The notes beneath the pieces were generated by a model. It did no database searches. It was not told the origin of the DNA and was given only the letters and a program-made list of their open reading frames with translations. This document shows, piece by piece, positions 3,849 through 10,438 of a DNA stretch of 41,191 nucleotides. The stretch is from Chloroflexota bacterium (lineage in GTDB: Bacteria > Chloroflexota > Dehalococcoidia > Lucifugimonadales > G022566795): the NCBI GenBank assembly GCA_022566795.1, contig JADFIF010000008.1:1-41191 (forward strand), given 5' to 3'. The translations under genes were made by a program, and so were the position numbers. Within the stretch, counting starts at the first letter, position 1, and each line of letters opens with the position of its first letter.

Positions 3849-4001
3849 TCCATGATCTCAGTTTACTACTGGGTTTGACCCACAAGGAACGGCACCGCGG
3901 CAGTACTTAAGTCGTGTTTGACAAGGACTTTCGTGCCATTCGCCTAGAGGGCTCTGAGCGGCGTCGGCATGGCCTGCAAGGGCGATGATATAATTCCGCC
4001 C

Positions 4002-4988
4002 ATGCTGGTGATCAACCGACGGGAGGTCGAGTCCCTAATCGACCTGGACGAGCTTGTGGACGCCTTGGCGCCCGCGATGGTGGAGCTGAGCGCGGGCACC
4101 GTGTCGCTGCCACCCCGCATCGCCGCCGACGTCCCGGCCAGGTCGGCCTTCGTCGGCGTCATGCCGACCTACCTGCCGTCCTCCGAATCGCTGGCGGTGA
4201 AGCTGGTTAGCGTCTTCCCCCACAACGACGCTCTGGGGCTCGAGAGCCACCATGCGATGATCGCGGTGTTCGACGCGGGCACGGGCGTCGTCGAGGCCGT
4301 CATGGACGGCAGCCATATCACGGCGACGCGGACCGCCGCGGGCTCCGCGCTGGCGACGCGGCTTCTGGCCCGTGGCGACGCACACGTGTTGGCGCTGCTG
4401 GGCACTGGAGTGCAGGCGCGGGCGCATGCGAGGGCAATTCCCCGCGTTCGGCCGGTTCGGGAGATTCGGGTCGCCGGCCGCAATCGGGAAAAGGCAGTGA
4501 CCGTGGCCCGGGAGCTGTCGGACGAGCTCGGCCTCACGGTGGTGGCAGCCGCCTCCTACGAGGACGCCGCTTCGGGCGCAGACATCGTGTGCACGGCGAC
4601 GCACTCCACCGAGCCGGTGCTGCGCTGGCGGTGGCTCCGGGCCGGCGCGCACGTCAACTCGGTCGGGCTGAATCCGGCGGGCAGGGAGCTGGACGATGAT
4701 ACCGTTGCCAACGCGCTGGTGGTCGTCGAGTCGCGCGACTCGGCGCTCGCGCCGCCTCCGGCCGGAGCCAACGACCTGCTATGGCCCATCCGCGACGGGC
4801 GCATCGCCAAGAGCCACGTGCACGCCGAGGTGGGCGAGCTGATATCGGGCGCGAAGCCCGGACGGACCTCGGCAGAGCAGGTGACGCTGTACAAGTCGGT
4901 CGGTGTCGCGGTCCAAGACGCCGTGGCGGCGAGGCTCGTGCTCGAAAAGGCGCGAGGGCGAGGCATGGGGACCGAAGTGGCGCTCTAA
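4002..4988 (+). CDS. Ornithine cyclodeaminase / mu-crystallin family protein
   Basis: MLVINRREVESLIDLDELVDALAPAMVELSAG...MDGSHITATRTAAGSALATRLLA...LLGTGVQARAHARA...NSVGLNPAGRELDDD; typical family motifs. Confidence 0.9.
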   Translation: MLVINRREVESLIDLDELVDALAPAMVELSAGTVSLPPRIAADVPARSAFVGVMPTYLPSSESLAVKLVSVFPHNDALGLESHHAMIAVFDAGTGVVEAVMDGSHITATRTAAGSALATRLLARGDAHVLALLGTGVQARAHARAIPRVRPVREIRVAGRNREKAVTVARELSDELGLTVVAAASYEDAASGADIVCTATHSTEPVLRWRWLRAGAHVNSVGLNPAGRELDDDTVANALVVVESRDSALAPPPAGANDLLWPIRDGRIAKSHVHAEVGELISGAKPGRTSAEQVTLYKSVGVAVQDAVAARLVLEKARGRGMGTEVAL

Positions 4989-5141: not shown

Positions 5142-5375
5142 CTAGCTCTTTTCAGCGCGGCCTCTCGAGATTGCGCTGCTCAGTTCCGCGGCGATCTCGG
5201 ATTCCCGCCGTGCTGCCAGGCGGATGATGGCCCGGGCCATGAGCTGAAGGCTCTCTTCCAGGCGCGACAGGATGCGCTCCAGGCGAAGCATGAACCACAC
5301 GAGTACGATACCCGCTATACCCGCGTTCACAAACGGCGACAGGTCAATCTGCAACGTCCTACCCTCGCATACCAA
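5142..5375 (-). CDS. Small membrane protein (one TM plus amphipathic helix), holin-like candidate at the end of the tail cassette
   Basis: 77 aa: ...FVNAGIAGIVLVWFMLRLERILSRLEESLQLMARAI...; same strand and 23 bp downstream of the tail protein gene. Confidence 0.5.
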   Translation of the reverse strand: MVCEGRTLQIDLSPFVNAGIAGIVLVWFMLRLERILSRLEESLQLMARAIIRLAARRESEIAAELSSAISRGRAEKS

Positions 5376-5398
5376 CTACTTCTCGACCGATCCCGAAA

Positions 5399-7357
5399 CT
5401 ACACCCCCTCCAGCAACAGCTCGCGGGCGACCCTGGTCCAGCCCTCTCCGACCGTCACCCGGTGCCCCTCTACGAAGAAATCGCCGTCGATGCCCATGTC
5501 GCTGTAGGTGACGGTGACTCGGTCCGAGAAGGTCCGCTGGAGGATGAGCATCAGGTTCGCCCTGGAGCCGTTGGACACGACGACGTTGAGCACGGTCTTC
5601 GGGTCCTTCTTGCGCGCAAGTCTGGAATCGGCGGTGGCCTGCGCCACGGCCACCTCGCGGGTCCACCGGGCCTCGATGCTTTTGACGCGCTGGCCGTAGG
5701 TGCTCTTGCTGGTGGCATCCTCGGCAAGCACCAGCAGCGGGTCGTCGAACAGGAAGGCGTTGAGAGTGCGGAGCTTCAGCAGCGTCAGGTACCCGGCCGT
5801 AGCACCGAACGTTACCCTGATGAGAGTCCCCTTGCCGTTGAAGTCGGCGGTGTTAGGGTGGGTTACGGTCAGCTCGCTGGATATGTCCGTGCCCGAGCCA
5901 TCCTGAGCGGTGTTGGCGTCGTAGTCGGTGTTCTCCAGAGGCGTAAGCTGGCCGGCCACGATGTCGTAGTCCTCGGACTCGGCCAGGAAGTCCTTGGTCT
6001 CGTCTGAGGCAAAGGAGGGCTTCTCCTTCAGGGTCCAGGCGGTCTGGAGGCCTTGGGTCGTCGCGTCCCTGATCCTCACGAACACGACGTTCTCGATGTT
6101 CCCCGCTCCGTCGTCCCACACCAGCTCGGAGAAGAAGGCGTTGGCGCCGTCATTCACCTCCTTTATAGTGGCCTGAGACGCCGTATGGGGCCCTCCACTC
6201 CGGTGGGTCCGGTTCTCCAGGCGCCAGTAGCCGTGTCCGTCGACGTAGGCGAACCCATCCTCCTCGTCTTGGAGACGATGGATCTCATCGGTGGCCTGGA
6301 CACCCCAGATGGGCGGGCTGAACAGGCTGGGCACCAGAGTCGTTCCCGAGTCGAGCTGCCGCGAGCCGGAGTCCACGTCGGCGTAGTCGAGGATATCTCC
6401 CAGGATCTCGTCGGACGTTTGCGGCAGCGGGGAGGCCGAGTAGGTGTACAGCGTCACGCTGGTCAGCCGCTCGAGCTCGTCCAGCGCCCGCAGGTAGCAG
6501 TACTGCGCCGACCTGATTGGCCTGGGATGTATCGAGTCGACCGTGCCGAAGAACATCGACACCCACCCACCGAAGGCGTTCCACGCGTGGTCGGCCTGAT
6601 CGTCGCAGAACAGGCCGTGCCTCGTCGCGGTGGTGTTGAAGGATGAGGTCGTGTCCACGATCTCGGTGCTGTCGACGAAGACGCGGATGGACGTGCCGTG
6701 CAGGACGACTTGCAAGAACCTCTTCGAGGCGCTGGGCCAGGTGTAAGCCGCGCTGGCGACCAGGCTGTCGGCCCCGCCATCGACCTTCCGCACCTCGATG
6801 GCCGAGCCCGTGACCCTCGCGTACAGGTAGTCGCTGGTGGTGGAGAACCGAAAGGCGAGACCTCCACGATCGGCAGAGTCGGTCCCGAGGGTAAAGTCGC
6901 AGCCAAGAGATACGTTGGCGTCGAGGAAGTCGACGGTTGCCACGCAATCGCCGTTACCCTGGGTGCTGTCGGTTTCGACGCCCCCGCCGGCGACGATCTG
7001 AAAGCCGCCGAGGTGCTGGGTCCACGCGAACCCCGAGTCGAGGTCGAGAGTATGAGCTGAAAGCGGCGTTCCGCCGGCGTCGGAGAAGCCGTCGTAGGGG
7101 TACGCCGCACGCACCCACGTCTTGCGGCCAGGCTTCAGATTGCCGCTGAGCGGCGAGGACGTGTTGGGCGGGCTGTACTTGTGGTCGTCATTCCTGAGCT
7201 GAAGCTCGAGGCGTGCCGCCTCCAGGTGGCCGCTGGACAGGTCGCGAAAGTGCTCCAGGGTGAGCCCGAGCACATCCGCCGTCACGTCCTCGTTGGCGTC
7301 GGAGAAGTCGCCATCGTCGTTCCAGTCGACCTGAACCAACCACTTAGCCTGGGCCAC
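5399..7357 (-). CDS. Phage tail-like protein (tail tip/hub-like) with LamG-like internal region
   Basis: 652 aa: N-terminus MAQAKWLVQVDWNDDGDFSDANEDVTADVLG typical of phage minor tail proteins; central RFLQVVLHGTSIRVFVDSTEIVDTTSSF resembles a concanavalin/LamG fold. Confidence 0.65.
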   Translation of the reverse strand: MAQAKWLVQVDWNDDGDFSDANEDVTADVLGLTLEHFRDLSSGHLEAARLELQLRNDDHKYSPPNTSSPLSGNLKPGRKTWVRAAYPYDGFSDAGGTPLSAHTLDLDSGFAWTQHLGGFQIVAGGGVETDSTQGNGDCVATVDFLDANVSLGCDFTLGTDSADRGGLAFRFSTTSDYLYARVTGSAIEVRKVDGGADSLVASAAYTWPSASKRFLQVVLHGTSIRVFVDSTEIVDTTSSFNTTATRHGLFCDDQADHAWNAFGGWVSMFFGTVDSIHPRPIRSAQYCYLRALDELERLTSVTLYTYSASPLPQTSDEILGDILDYADVDSGSRQLDSGTTLVPSLFSPPIWGVQATDEIHRLQDEEDGFAYVDGHGYWRLENRTHRSGGPHTASQATIKEVNDGANAFFSELVWDDGAGNIENVVFVRIRDATTQGLQTAWTLKEKPSFASDETKDFLAESEDYDIVAGQLTPLENTDYDANTAQDGSGTDISSELTVTHPNTADFNGKGTLIRVTFGATAGYLTLLKLRTLNAFLFDDPLLVLAEDATSKSTYGQRVKSIEARWTREVAVAQATADSRLARKKDPKTVLNVVVSNGSRANLMLILQRTFSDRVTVTYSDMGIDGDFFVEGHRVTVGEGWTRVARELLLEGV

Positions 7358-7383
7358 TAATTCGCCTCCTGCTGGTGCCTTGT

Positions 7384-7815
7384 CTAGCCACCGACGCCTA
7401 GCCCCCTGCGGCGGTCCTCCGCGAGCAGACGTTTAATCTCCTTCGCCAGCGCTCTGATGGCTCGCTCGTCGTCGAGGAAGATCGTACCGCCCACCAGGTT
7501 GACGTTTACCGTCGAATCACCGGCCAAGCTTGAGGTAGCAGGTCGTGCCGTGGGGATCATCGCCGCGCTCATGGAGGGCCGCCCGCGCACTCGGGCAGAG
7601 GGTGCCTCCGGTGTCGACCCGGCGGTGGGGGCCAACCTCGGGAGGGAACGCAGGGCCGCGTCAGTCTCGGCACGGAGCCGGGTGAGCCGCGCCGACTGCT
7701 CTGGCGCCTCGGCCGCTGGCGGCGCGGATGGCGGAAGCCTTCGCAGGGTTCGCACGACGTTGCCGGCCTCTGCCCGAAGCCGGTTCAACCTCGCAGATGT
7801 TGATTCGCTGCCCAT
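7384..7815 (-). CDS. Short tape-measure-like protein with duplicated N-terminal motif
   Basis: 143 aa; repeats SARLNRLRAEAGNVVRTLRRLPP / SARLTRLRAETDAALRSLPRLAP; C-terminus STVNVNLVGGTIFLDDERAIRALAKEIKRLLAEDRRR resembles tape-measure C-termini; starts 1 nt after the preceding stop. Confidence 0.5.
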   Translation of the reverse strand: MGSESTSARLNRLRAEAGNVVRTLRRLPPSAPPAAEAPEQSARLTRLRAETDAALRSLPRLAPTAGSTPEAPSARVRGRPSMSAAMIPTARPATSSLAGDSTVNVNLVGGTIFLDDERAIRALAKEIKRLLAEDRRRGLGVGG

Positions 7816-7816
7816 A

Positions 7817-8383
7817 TCAGCCGTGCTCCTCTTCGTTCTCGAAGTTCAACGCTCCGCCGCCTTCGACCGCCCGCGCAACAGCGAGGTAGGTGCCCATGCG
7901 CCGCACGATGTCGGCGGGCGTCTCCTGTAGCCTCTGCCAGCTCCAGCCGGTCGCGGCCATCAGGTGGGCCTCGACGAATGCTGCGGGCACTTGGCCCGAC
8001 ATCAGCGCGGCGAAGAGCTCCTCTGCCTCGGCCCGAAGGCTCCGCGTGGCCAGGTATGGTGCGACGCAACGCTTGAACGCCTCCAGCACGGCGATCAGAT
8101 CTTCAGGGTCTCGCGAGGCGATGGCCTCGACACTGGCGGGCCCTGAAAAGCTCCAGCCCGCAGTGAGGGATACCAGCGCTCGGTCGACCAGTTCGTCGCC
8201 GGCGTCGGACCACTCGCTCAGATGGGCCCATGTAGGCCGGACGAAGATATCCCACCAACCGCCCGAGGGCAGCTCGACTCGATATACCTCGCCCACAGGG
8301 CCGGACGGGTCTGACCGCCCGGCAGACCGCTTCGCCCTGGCTGCCCCGCCGCCAAGCGCCTGTCGGCTCCAGCGAAACCGCAT
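7817..8383 (-). CDS. Putative tail assembly chaperone-like protein
   Basis: Listed ORF starts at 8440, but ATG at 8383 (MRFRWSRQALGGGAAR) avoids overlap with the upstream gene; mid-size helical protein between tail tube and tape-measure-like genes. Confidence 0.5.
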   Translation of the reverse strand: MRFRWSRQALGGGAARAKRSAGRSDPSGPVGEVYRVELPSGGWWDIFVRPTWAHLSEWSDAGDELVDRALVSLTAGWSFSGPASVEAIASRDPEDLIAVLEAFKRCVAPYLATRSLRAEAEELFAALMSGQVPAAFVEAHLMAATGWSWQRLQETPADIVRRMGTYLAVARAVEGGGALNFENEEEHG

Positions 8384-8388
8384 CGCCG

Positions 8389-8814
8389 TTAGTAGGCGCC
8401 TCGCGTGACAGTGCCCTCGACCTGCAGCGTTGCGAGCCACTCGATGAGGTTTCCGACGCGGCTCCTGAGCTCATACAGGCTTACCCAACACGTGCCGGAG
8501 TACTTCACGTCGCCGACGGCAGTCCCCTCCGGTCCGTATTCGAAACTCACGGCGGTCGTGTTGGTCCGCAATGGGCCGAGCACGGCGTCGGGACCTGCTG
8601 TAACGGTGTCGTCGAACAGGCCTCGCAGGTTGACCGTCACATCCTCCAGGCCGGGGATGAACTTCGCGCCTGAGTCTCCCAAGGCTGTGACCTCGTTCAG
8701 CAACCTCGGACCCGGCAGCCCGCGGACCTCCGTCAAGTAGGCCGACAGGTCGCGTGGCAGGTCGGCGGTGTCGTTGATTGAGAACTTGGAGACCTTGGAG
8801 TCGAAAAAGGTCAT
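8389..8814 (-). CDS. Phage tail tube-like protein
   Basis: Internal ATG 8814 (MTFFDSKVSKFSINDTADLPRDLSAYLTEVRGLPG...KFIPGLEDVTVNLRGLFDDTV...TAVSFEYGPEGTAVGDVKYSGTCWVSLYE). The ORF extension to 8922 runs through a terminator-like hairpin. Confidence 0.65.
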   Translation of the reverse strand: MTFFDSKVSKFSINDTADLPRDLSAYLTEVRGLPGPRLLNEVTALGDSGAKFIPGLEDVTVNLRGLFDDTVTAGPDAVLGPLRTNTTAVSFEYGPEGTAVGDVKYSGTCWVSLYELRSRVGNLIEWLATLQVEGTVTRGAY

Positions 8815-9304: not shown

Positions 9305-9352
9305 TCTTTGCGTTGTAACGGGCGAAACAATCTTGGAGGGAGGCGGTATCCA

Positions 9353-10438
9353 GTGAAGAGACTGAGTGTGGGGGTAGTAGTGGCCTTGGCCGTGATGGCG
9401 CTGACGGCCGTAATCGCCGCGAACGCCGGGACGACGCAGGCGGACCAGGAACGGCAGGCGGCGCAGGCAGAGGTTCAGCCGAAGCTCGGGGACGGGCGAG
9501 GTGCGGAGGGGTCTGGCCAGGGGTCGGGCTTCAAGCGGAACGCCGCCCCAGAGGATAAGGCTCCATTCATCGGCGTTACTCTCGGCGAGCTGCCGGAGGC
9601 GGAGGCGGATGCGCTCGACATTGCGGGCGGCGTGGTCGTGGGACGCGTGCTAGACGACGGCCCCGCGGCAGGCCTGCTCGCTGCGGGCGACGTGATCGTC
9701 TCGGTGGGCGGTGTAGACGTGCTGACTGCCGTCGACGTCGTCCAAGCGGTCCGTGCGGTCGAGCCGGGCGACACGCTATCGTTCACGGTGGTCCGCGATG
9801 GTGTTACGCTGACCGTCGAAGTCGAGGTCGGCGATCGCCCCCACAGAACCATACGGCGCGCTGGCCGCAAAGCTGGGCCGGGCAACCCCGTGCTGAGCTT
9901 GATCCGGCAGCTCGGCAACAGGCTGGCCAAGGCCGAGATAGTGCTGGAGACCGACGACGGCTTCAAGACGTTCAGGGCCGTGGCCGGCACCTTGAGCGAC
10001 CTGAACGTCGACGAACGCACCTTCACGCTGAATCTGGTCGCCGGTGACGGTTCTGAGGCGATTGAATACACGATCTCCGCCGATACCGTGGTCACGACGA
10101 AGCAGAGAGGCACGCTGGCCGGGTTGAACACAACCGACAGGACGCTGGTCGTGGATGTCGATGGCGACGTGAAGCTCGTTCAACAGGGGTACGTCGACGC
10201 CGGGAAGCACTGGCGCGGCCGGCCCTTCGGCGGCCGAGGCCATAACTTCCGGCCGGGCCCCGGCGCGTTCCCTGACATTCAGCGGCGGCTTCGGAGCATT
10301 CTTCCCAGGCTGGAGGGCGCTGGCTTCGACCTGAGGGCGTTCCTCGAGAGGTCGCATGGCGCCTTCGGTGAGGGCTCCGAGAGCCTAAGCGACACGCTGC
10401 GGGACATTATCGGGTCCGGTGAGGGCACAACGCAGTAA
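9353..10438 (+). CDS. Secreted/membrane PDZ-domain protein
   Basis: GTG start at 9353 preceded by GGAGGGAGG; signal-like MKRLSVGVVVALAVMALTAVIAANA; PDZ region IGVTLGELPEAEADALDIAGGVVVGRVLDDGPAAGLLAAGDVIVSVGG. Confidence 0.8.
   Translation: MKRLSVGVVVALAVMALTAVIAANAGTTQADQERQAAQAEVQPKLGDGRGAEGSGQGSGFKRNAAPEDKAPFIGVTLGELPEAEADALDIAGGVVVGRVLDDGPAAGLLAAGDVIVSVGGVDVLTAVDVVQAVRAVEPGDTLSFTVVRDGVTLTVEVEVGDRPHRTIRRAGRKAGPGNPVLSLIRQLGNRLAKAEIVLETDDGFKTFRAVAGTLSDLNVDERTFTLNLVAGDGSEAIEYTISADTVVTTKQRGTLAGLNTTDRTLVVDVDGDVKLVQQGYVDAGKHWRGRPFGGRGHNFRPGPGAFPDIQRRLRSILPRLEGAGFDLRAFLERSHGAFGEGSESLSDTLRDIIGSGEGTTQ

Follow-up and report, generated by a model that had tools for sequence, protein, structure and literature searches.

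The window analysed here, that is, the whole stretch of DNA, is one entire contig (G000:C135) of 41191 bases from a 189-contig metagenome-assembled genome (MAG) of the Dehalococcoidia (Chloroflexota) with a size of 2.77 Mb, a completeness of 85% and a contamination of 4%. The minus strand at positions 5142-8814 holds a block of five open reading frames (ORFs) related to phage tail genes, each of which is intact and shows coding bias in the GC content of third codon positions (GC3). The ORFs are separated by 5, 1, 26 and 44 nt, and the largest, a frame of 652 aa, is longer than any ORF that arose when the block was shuffled 200 times (at most 382 aa). The block is bordered by an ornithine-cyclodeaminase-like gene (3969-4988, plus strand) and a PDZ gene (9308-10438, plus strand). 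The preliminary description of this DNA had placed five intact minus-strand tail-like genes between these neighbors and all are present; its guesses for the five proteins (tube, chaperone, tape measure, tip and a protein with one transmembrane helix) were essentially right. The start assigned there to the small protein (5375, 77 aa) was replaced by that of the homologues, which yields 70 aa. The features of the block are as follows.

8389-8814, minus strand: major tail tube protein, 141 aa, ATG start (PHROG_10528 major tail protein, E 8.3e-31).
7817-8383, minus strand: tail assembly chaperone-like protein, 188 aa, ATG start (position and homology).
7384-7815, minus strand: tape-measure stub, 143 aa, ATG start (C-terminal motif common to related tape measures).
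5399-7357, minus strand: tail hub or tip protein, 652 aa, GTG start (AlphaFold2 and Foldseek).
6623-6940, minus strand: lectin-like (CBM66 / laminin-G-type) domain inserted in the hub at residues ~140-245 (Foldseek).
5142-5354, minus strand: 70-aa membrane protein with one helix, holin candidate, TTG start (topology and position).

Searches against Pfam returned nothing significant for any of the five proteins. The tube protein is ~30% identical to major tail proteins of Arthrobacter phages and 65-76% identical to its relatives in other families of the order and on viral contig L002; its profile had no match in the PDB. Since no named family matched the chaperone-like protein, the assignment is based on position and homology: relatives are 41-52% identical, and the first ~110 residues align with an ORF of 112-128 aa located 3' of the tube gene in related phages. 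The stub is conserved in its last ~40 residues (VNVNLxGGxIFLDDERxxRxLAKEIKRLIxEDRRRG), and this motif aligned to the very end of the 592-aa tape measure encoded on viral contig L003 (three-sequence search, domain i-E 6e-4), a protein matching a PHROG tape measure with an E value of 1e-32. The length of a tape measure sets the length of the tail. By this logic a much shorter tail is expected than that of related phages.

The fold of the hub was modeled with a predicted local distance difference test score (pLDDT) of 93.7 and a predicted template modeling score (pTM) of 0.89 when 31 sequences were supplied, whereas a run on 7 sequences gave a pLDDT of 37. Foldseek matched the model to 3d37, to baseplate and VgrG hubs, to gp44 of phage Mu (1wru) and to gp27 of T4. 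The hub matched phage proteins (up to E 5.7e-71), and no match was obtained in the search against annotated phages. The inserted domain was similar to the CBM66 of levanase, with a Foldseek TM-score of about 0.68 by target length, and weak sequence matches to neurexin and levanase CBM66 were found in the same region. The 70-aa protein has an N-terminal hydrophobic stretch (Kyte-Doolittle 1.92) with one predicted membrane helix and is conserved directly 3' of the hub in this type of tail locus. Neither Pfam nor PHROG gave a match, and its relatives had no family even at an E value of 10, so that it may be a holin as judged from topology and position. The earlier statement that no lysis gene is present may consequently be wrong. 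The accompanying statement on head, packaging and integration genes stood, in that no terminase, portal, capsid or integrase was recognized on reading the other ORFs of the window, on which family searches were not run.

Since the window is one contig of a fragmented MAG, head genes were sought in the rest of the genome and were found there. A 9287-base contig (C2, locus L038) encodes a terminase, portal, protease, capsid, two small proteins, an adaptor and a tail terminator, with PHROG matches of 9e-36 for the terminase, 8e-86 for the portal, 3e-20 for the capsid and 4e-15 for the terminator. The cluster ends beside the gene for ribosomal protein L25, which also adjoins the head locus of G022. 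Hub relatives with 54-73% identity were present in 5 of 58 other genomes of the order, each from a different family, and the named records with a close hub are MAGs of Dehalococcoidia or Chloroflexi. A capsid of one HK97 family was found at another locus in all six of the tail-block carriers found first, one of which (G010) additionally holds a second, different capsid. The capsid of the window genome has 75-80% identity with its counterparts in G033, G039, G055 and viral contig L002. The full order of tube, chaperone, stub, hub and membrane protein recurs in G010, G033 and G039, the first-read carriers with long contigs, beside recA and lepA in G010, purA in G033 and other host genes in G039. 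The block also stands alone between host genes in genomes that are near-complete.

The terminase-portal and protease-capsid-adaptor-terminator modules occupy one or two other chromosomal loci, so that in relatives the parts are spread over up to three loci that lie up to hundreds of kb apart. In G033, on one contig of 2.69 Mb, the tail is located at 26 kb, the head at 44 kb (between the ATP-synthase operon and purM) and the large terminase (TerL) and portal at 2518 kb. A separate terminase-portal locus is also found in G039, G087 and others, and in several genera of family f41 the head and tail form one cluster with the terminase and portal at a distance of ~15 kb in G200 and up to 490 kb in G203. 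The Walker A, Walker B and acidic nuclease residues of TerL are kept in nearly all of 25 sequences.

Among 250 genomes of the order, the capsid was detected in 79, the terminase in 89, the portal in 88 and all three in 67. The genes co-occur strongly (capsid-portal 70, capsid-TerL 70, portal-TerL 80; Fisher P < 1e-33), and both portal and terminase were present in all 14 listed genomes of genus g78. Portal and capsid are usually single-copy. In a sample of 393 genomes from the class, the capsid was matched in 16, only three of them outside the order. These counts bear on the proposal that the block encodes a tail device acting alone, either a tailocin or an injection apparatus, as in the domesticated mini-tail device suggested in the preliminary description. 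The tail genes do stand alone in this window, and the hub fold is common with contractile injection systems, yet 31 of the 32 genomes bearing a hub also carry the capsid and 30 carry the portal, head and tail share one cluster in f41, and no sheath or baseplate genes were seen. A tape measure reduced to a stub or missing would be odd for a long-tailed killer, and a headless device is thus a most improbable explanation.

The genes of the element are under purifying selection and co-diversify with the host. Pairwise ratios of nonsynonymous to synonymous substitution (dN/dS) had group medians of 0.09-0.23 for the capsid, 0.08-0.22 for the portal, 0.14-0.27 for the hub and 0.10-0.28 for the tube; in most groups the capsid and portal were at ~0.1, with other genes at about 0.1-0.33 and the 70-aa protein likewise well below 1. 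Distance trees were congruent with that of rpoB (Mantel r 0.66-0.90, all P 0.001). The portal recovered 16 of 21 rpoB bipartitions compared with 2 or fewer in shuffles, the capsid recovered 12 of 22, and capsid distances were ~1.15x those of rpoB. Genus g78 was left out of this comparison on account of its aberrant rpoB, and congruence is weaker when it is included. The rpoB genes concerned (L112, L114, L115, L117 and L118) are open frames of 1530-1556 codons on a long branch that conflicts with the family placement. Host neighborhoods are shared as well: the genes flanking the tail locus of genus g31 (family f31) are 80-93% identical between genomes, an FAD-oxidoreductase gene lies next to the cluster in four genomes that represent three f41 genera, and the tail locus of G089 adjoins a homologue of the PDZ gene of the window.

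The scan of IMG/VR for the capsid yielded 76 loci, several of which are phage-like: their genes are contiguous and keep the same order, and a complete tape measure has 592-641 aa, compared with 143 aa at the window locus. Contigs L003, L160, L166, L169, L173 and L195 encode homologous terminase, portal, protease, capsid, adaptor, terminator, tube, chaperone and hub proteins, in the same order as the chromosomal element as far as each contig reaches. They are apparently viral, with capsids 44-66% identical to those of the element, which is split in the chromosome. The element descends from tailed phages. Contig L002 (1-10673) of the same collection carries head and tail genes of the chromosomal type, contiguous and with a short stub; it is probably a bacterial locus of this type or a near ancestor and not an ordinary phage.

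The existence of such phages, together with the loss of parts in some lineages and the stops carried by a few genes, would fit old prophage remnants left repeatedly by a phage lineage specific to the order. Against this stand dN/dS values well below 1 for every gene, that of the 70-aa protein included, a block order that is unchanged across several families, the congruent trees, the shared flanks and the portal in all of the listed g78 members, so that repeated remnants are very unlikely. The block is not a remnant. The recent prophage remnant offered in the preliminary description is rejected because of the agreement with rpoB, the flanks in common, a dN/dS of about 0.1-0.3 and the presence of the block in other families; the flanks, when read, show only isolated modules among host genes and no contiguous phage genome with an integrase or attachment sites.

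Overall, the results indicate that the block is probably the tail module of an endogenized, vertically inherited element resembling a gene transfer agent (GTA), a particle that carries bacterial DNA from cell to cell, in an order of the Dehalococcoidia. A GTA fragment encoded at dispersed loci was also among the options of the preliminary description, and it is the one borne out, with capsid, portal and terminase co-inherited at other loci of the genome. Six criteria have been put forward for GTAs (Kogay et al. 2022, PMC9662315). The element has proteins derived from tailed phages (Caudoviricetes), as judged by PHROG matches and the hub fold; it is fully endogenized at multiple loci, three in near-complete genomes; and it is inherited vertically in co-diversification with the host, as judged by the rpoB congruence, bipartitions, flanks and usual single copy. 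Since these are three of the six and the others, namely incomplete packaging of the agent's own genome, particles filled mostly with random host DNA and delivery of that DNA to other cells, lie beyond sequence evidence, the element is called GTA-like.

In the proposed working of the element, once the loci are expressed together, the capsid would assemble on the portal. The terminase, with its ATPase and nuclease residues intact, would fill the capsid with DNA, presumably that of the host, and the tube, set short by the stub, and the lectin-bearing hub would be joined on. The 70-aa membrane protein may help lysis and thereby release of the particles, and the lectin domain of the hub may bind sugars on recipient cells to which the DNA would be delivered. 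The genes of the element lie too far apart for joint packaging, which makes the DNA of the host the likely cargo; given distances of as much as hundreds of kb between loci, packaging of a complete element is implausible.

A domesticated phage-derived particle that retains a DNA-packaging head and is selected for a role other than gene transfer, such as altruistic lysis, a decoy or protective export of DNA, was also considered. Selection and inheritance demonstrate that the host benefits and not in which way, and reduction or loss of the tail would suit a particle with no need for efficient DNA delivery. However, the terminase, portal, protease, adaptor, terminator and lectin-bearing hub are all kept in the lineage of the window, a gene set expected of a particle that delivers DNA, and such a non-transfer role is considered unlikely.

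Several points weigh against the GTA-like assignment. Host-DNA packaging and transfer, which are two of the six criteria, are predictions from the gene content. The genome of the window is a fragmented MAG with the contamination given above; near-complete genomes agree nonetheless. Since related true phages exist, prophages co-diverging tightly with their hosts could mimic part of the signal. A small terminase and an endolysin were not identified, neither an adaptor nor a terminator was detected in G022, and the hub gene of G030 is interrupted by a TGA codon. Furthermore, a complete hub was not detected in families f19, f29, f4 and f10 and several f41 genera, nor in most cases was a tube. Since the capsid, portal and TerL persist in these lineages, the tail appears to have been replaced, to have diverged or to have been lost there. 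Genomes G202, G207, G224, G230, G061, G064, G098 and G003 have a capsid and portal, usually with a terminase, and in them tube and hub were undetected genome-wide.

Where measured, the head genes of lineages with no detected tail are under purifying selection. In genus g31 of f31 and in tail-bearing f41, neither chaperone nor stub lies between tube and hub; mere relocation of the chaperone was ruled out by its absence genome-wide in the genomes tested, a result that applies to the chaperone search only. A tentative explanation, and a somewhat doubtful one, is that Chloroflexota hold an ancient GTA lineage, spread across the order, that is shedding its tail step by step, with capsid, portal and terminase still under purifying selection. 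The series would run from the phage-length tape measure of the viruses to the stub with its ~40 conserved residues, then to the loss of chaperone and tape measure, and lastly to no detectable tube or hub. The particles would then still package host DNA with a minimal tail or none, and we know of no description of such a GTA.

The element most resembles RcGTA, the alphaproteobacterial type I GTA (Rhodogtaviriformidae), in the HK97-type head and packaging genes in classic order, the vertical inheritance and the dispersed loci; the RcGTA portal Rcc01684 is the best solved relative of its portal (E 1.5e-35). It differs in belonging to another phylum, in a capsid that matches phage capsids in the PDB and not the RcGTA capsid, in the division of the main structural set over up to three loci and in a tape measure of about 80-143 aa or none. 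Structural genes endogenized in separate chromosomal segments are described for the Brachyspira GTA (VSH-1 / BhGTA; Stanton et al. 2009, as cited in PMC11841831). The divided genome is common to both, whereas the phylum is again different and function is proven in Brachyspira while the present element is known from its genes. BaGTA of Bartonella is likewise derived from phages, has some genes outside the main cluster and lies near an active virus-derived replication origin (PMC9662315); the likeness, drawn from that description, is in phage origin and outlying genes, and no such replication origin was seen for the present element, where none was sought. Proven GTAs come from few lineages, namely Alphaproteobacteria, Brachyspira, Desulfovibrio and Methanococcus (PMC11841831), with recent reports from gut Oscillospiraceae and Ruminococcaceae (PMC12946183). 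No published report of a GTA from Chloroflexota was found in the open-access library searched; reports outside it could exist.

If the GTA-like assignment is correct, GTAs would be extended to Chloroflexota, with such a system present in roughly one third of the order's sampled genomes and a capsid diverging about as fast as RNA polymerase beta. It would offer uncultured bacteria a means of exchanging genes, and the reason why hosts keep GTAs would become testable across lineages with a full tail, a reduced one or none that can be detected. What look like isolated "phage fragments" in MAGs can belong to conserved machines that are split over several loci, and viral collections can hold GTA-like loci, as exemplified by L002.

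Further observations were made at the head and packaging loci. The terminase-portal locus of G033 (L077 11709-14721) lies shortly upstream of comEA/comEC-like DNA-uptake genes; recipients of the Rhodobacter GTA use DNA-uptake genes. G010, G003 and members of genus g49 hold the large terminase several times over, as copies or as fragments, with as many as eight matches; such cases were noted at L081 6222-8860 and L082 5779-8371 and in genomes G064, G059-G063 and G003. Two of the G010 copies have 2.7 kb in common, including a dispersed repeat of ~800 bp. A role for this repeat as a common regulator upstream of the G010 GTA genes was dropped, as it also occurs far from GTA loci. The head locus of G005 (L064 6800-11954) contains several duplicated capsid and adaptor fragments beside an intact capsid gene. 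The terminase-portal locus of G039 (L078 68-7728) adjoins rpoB/rpoC and also a duplicated block with a second C-terminal portal fragment.

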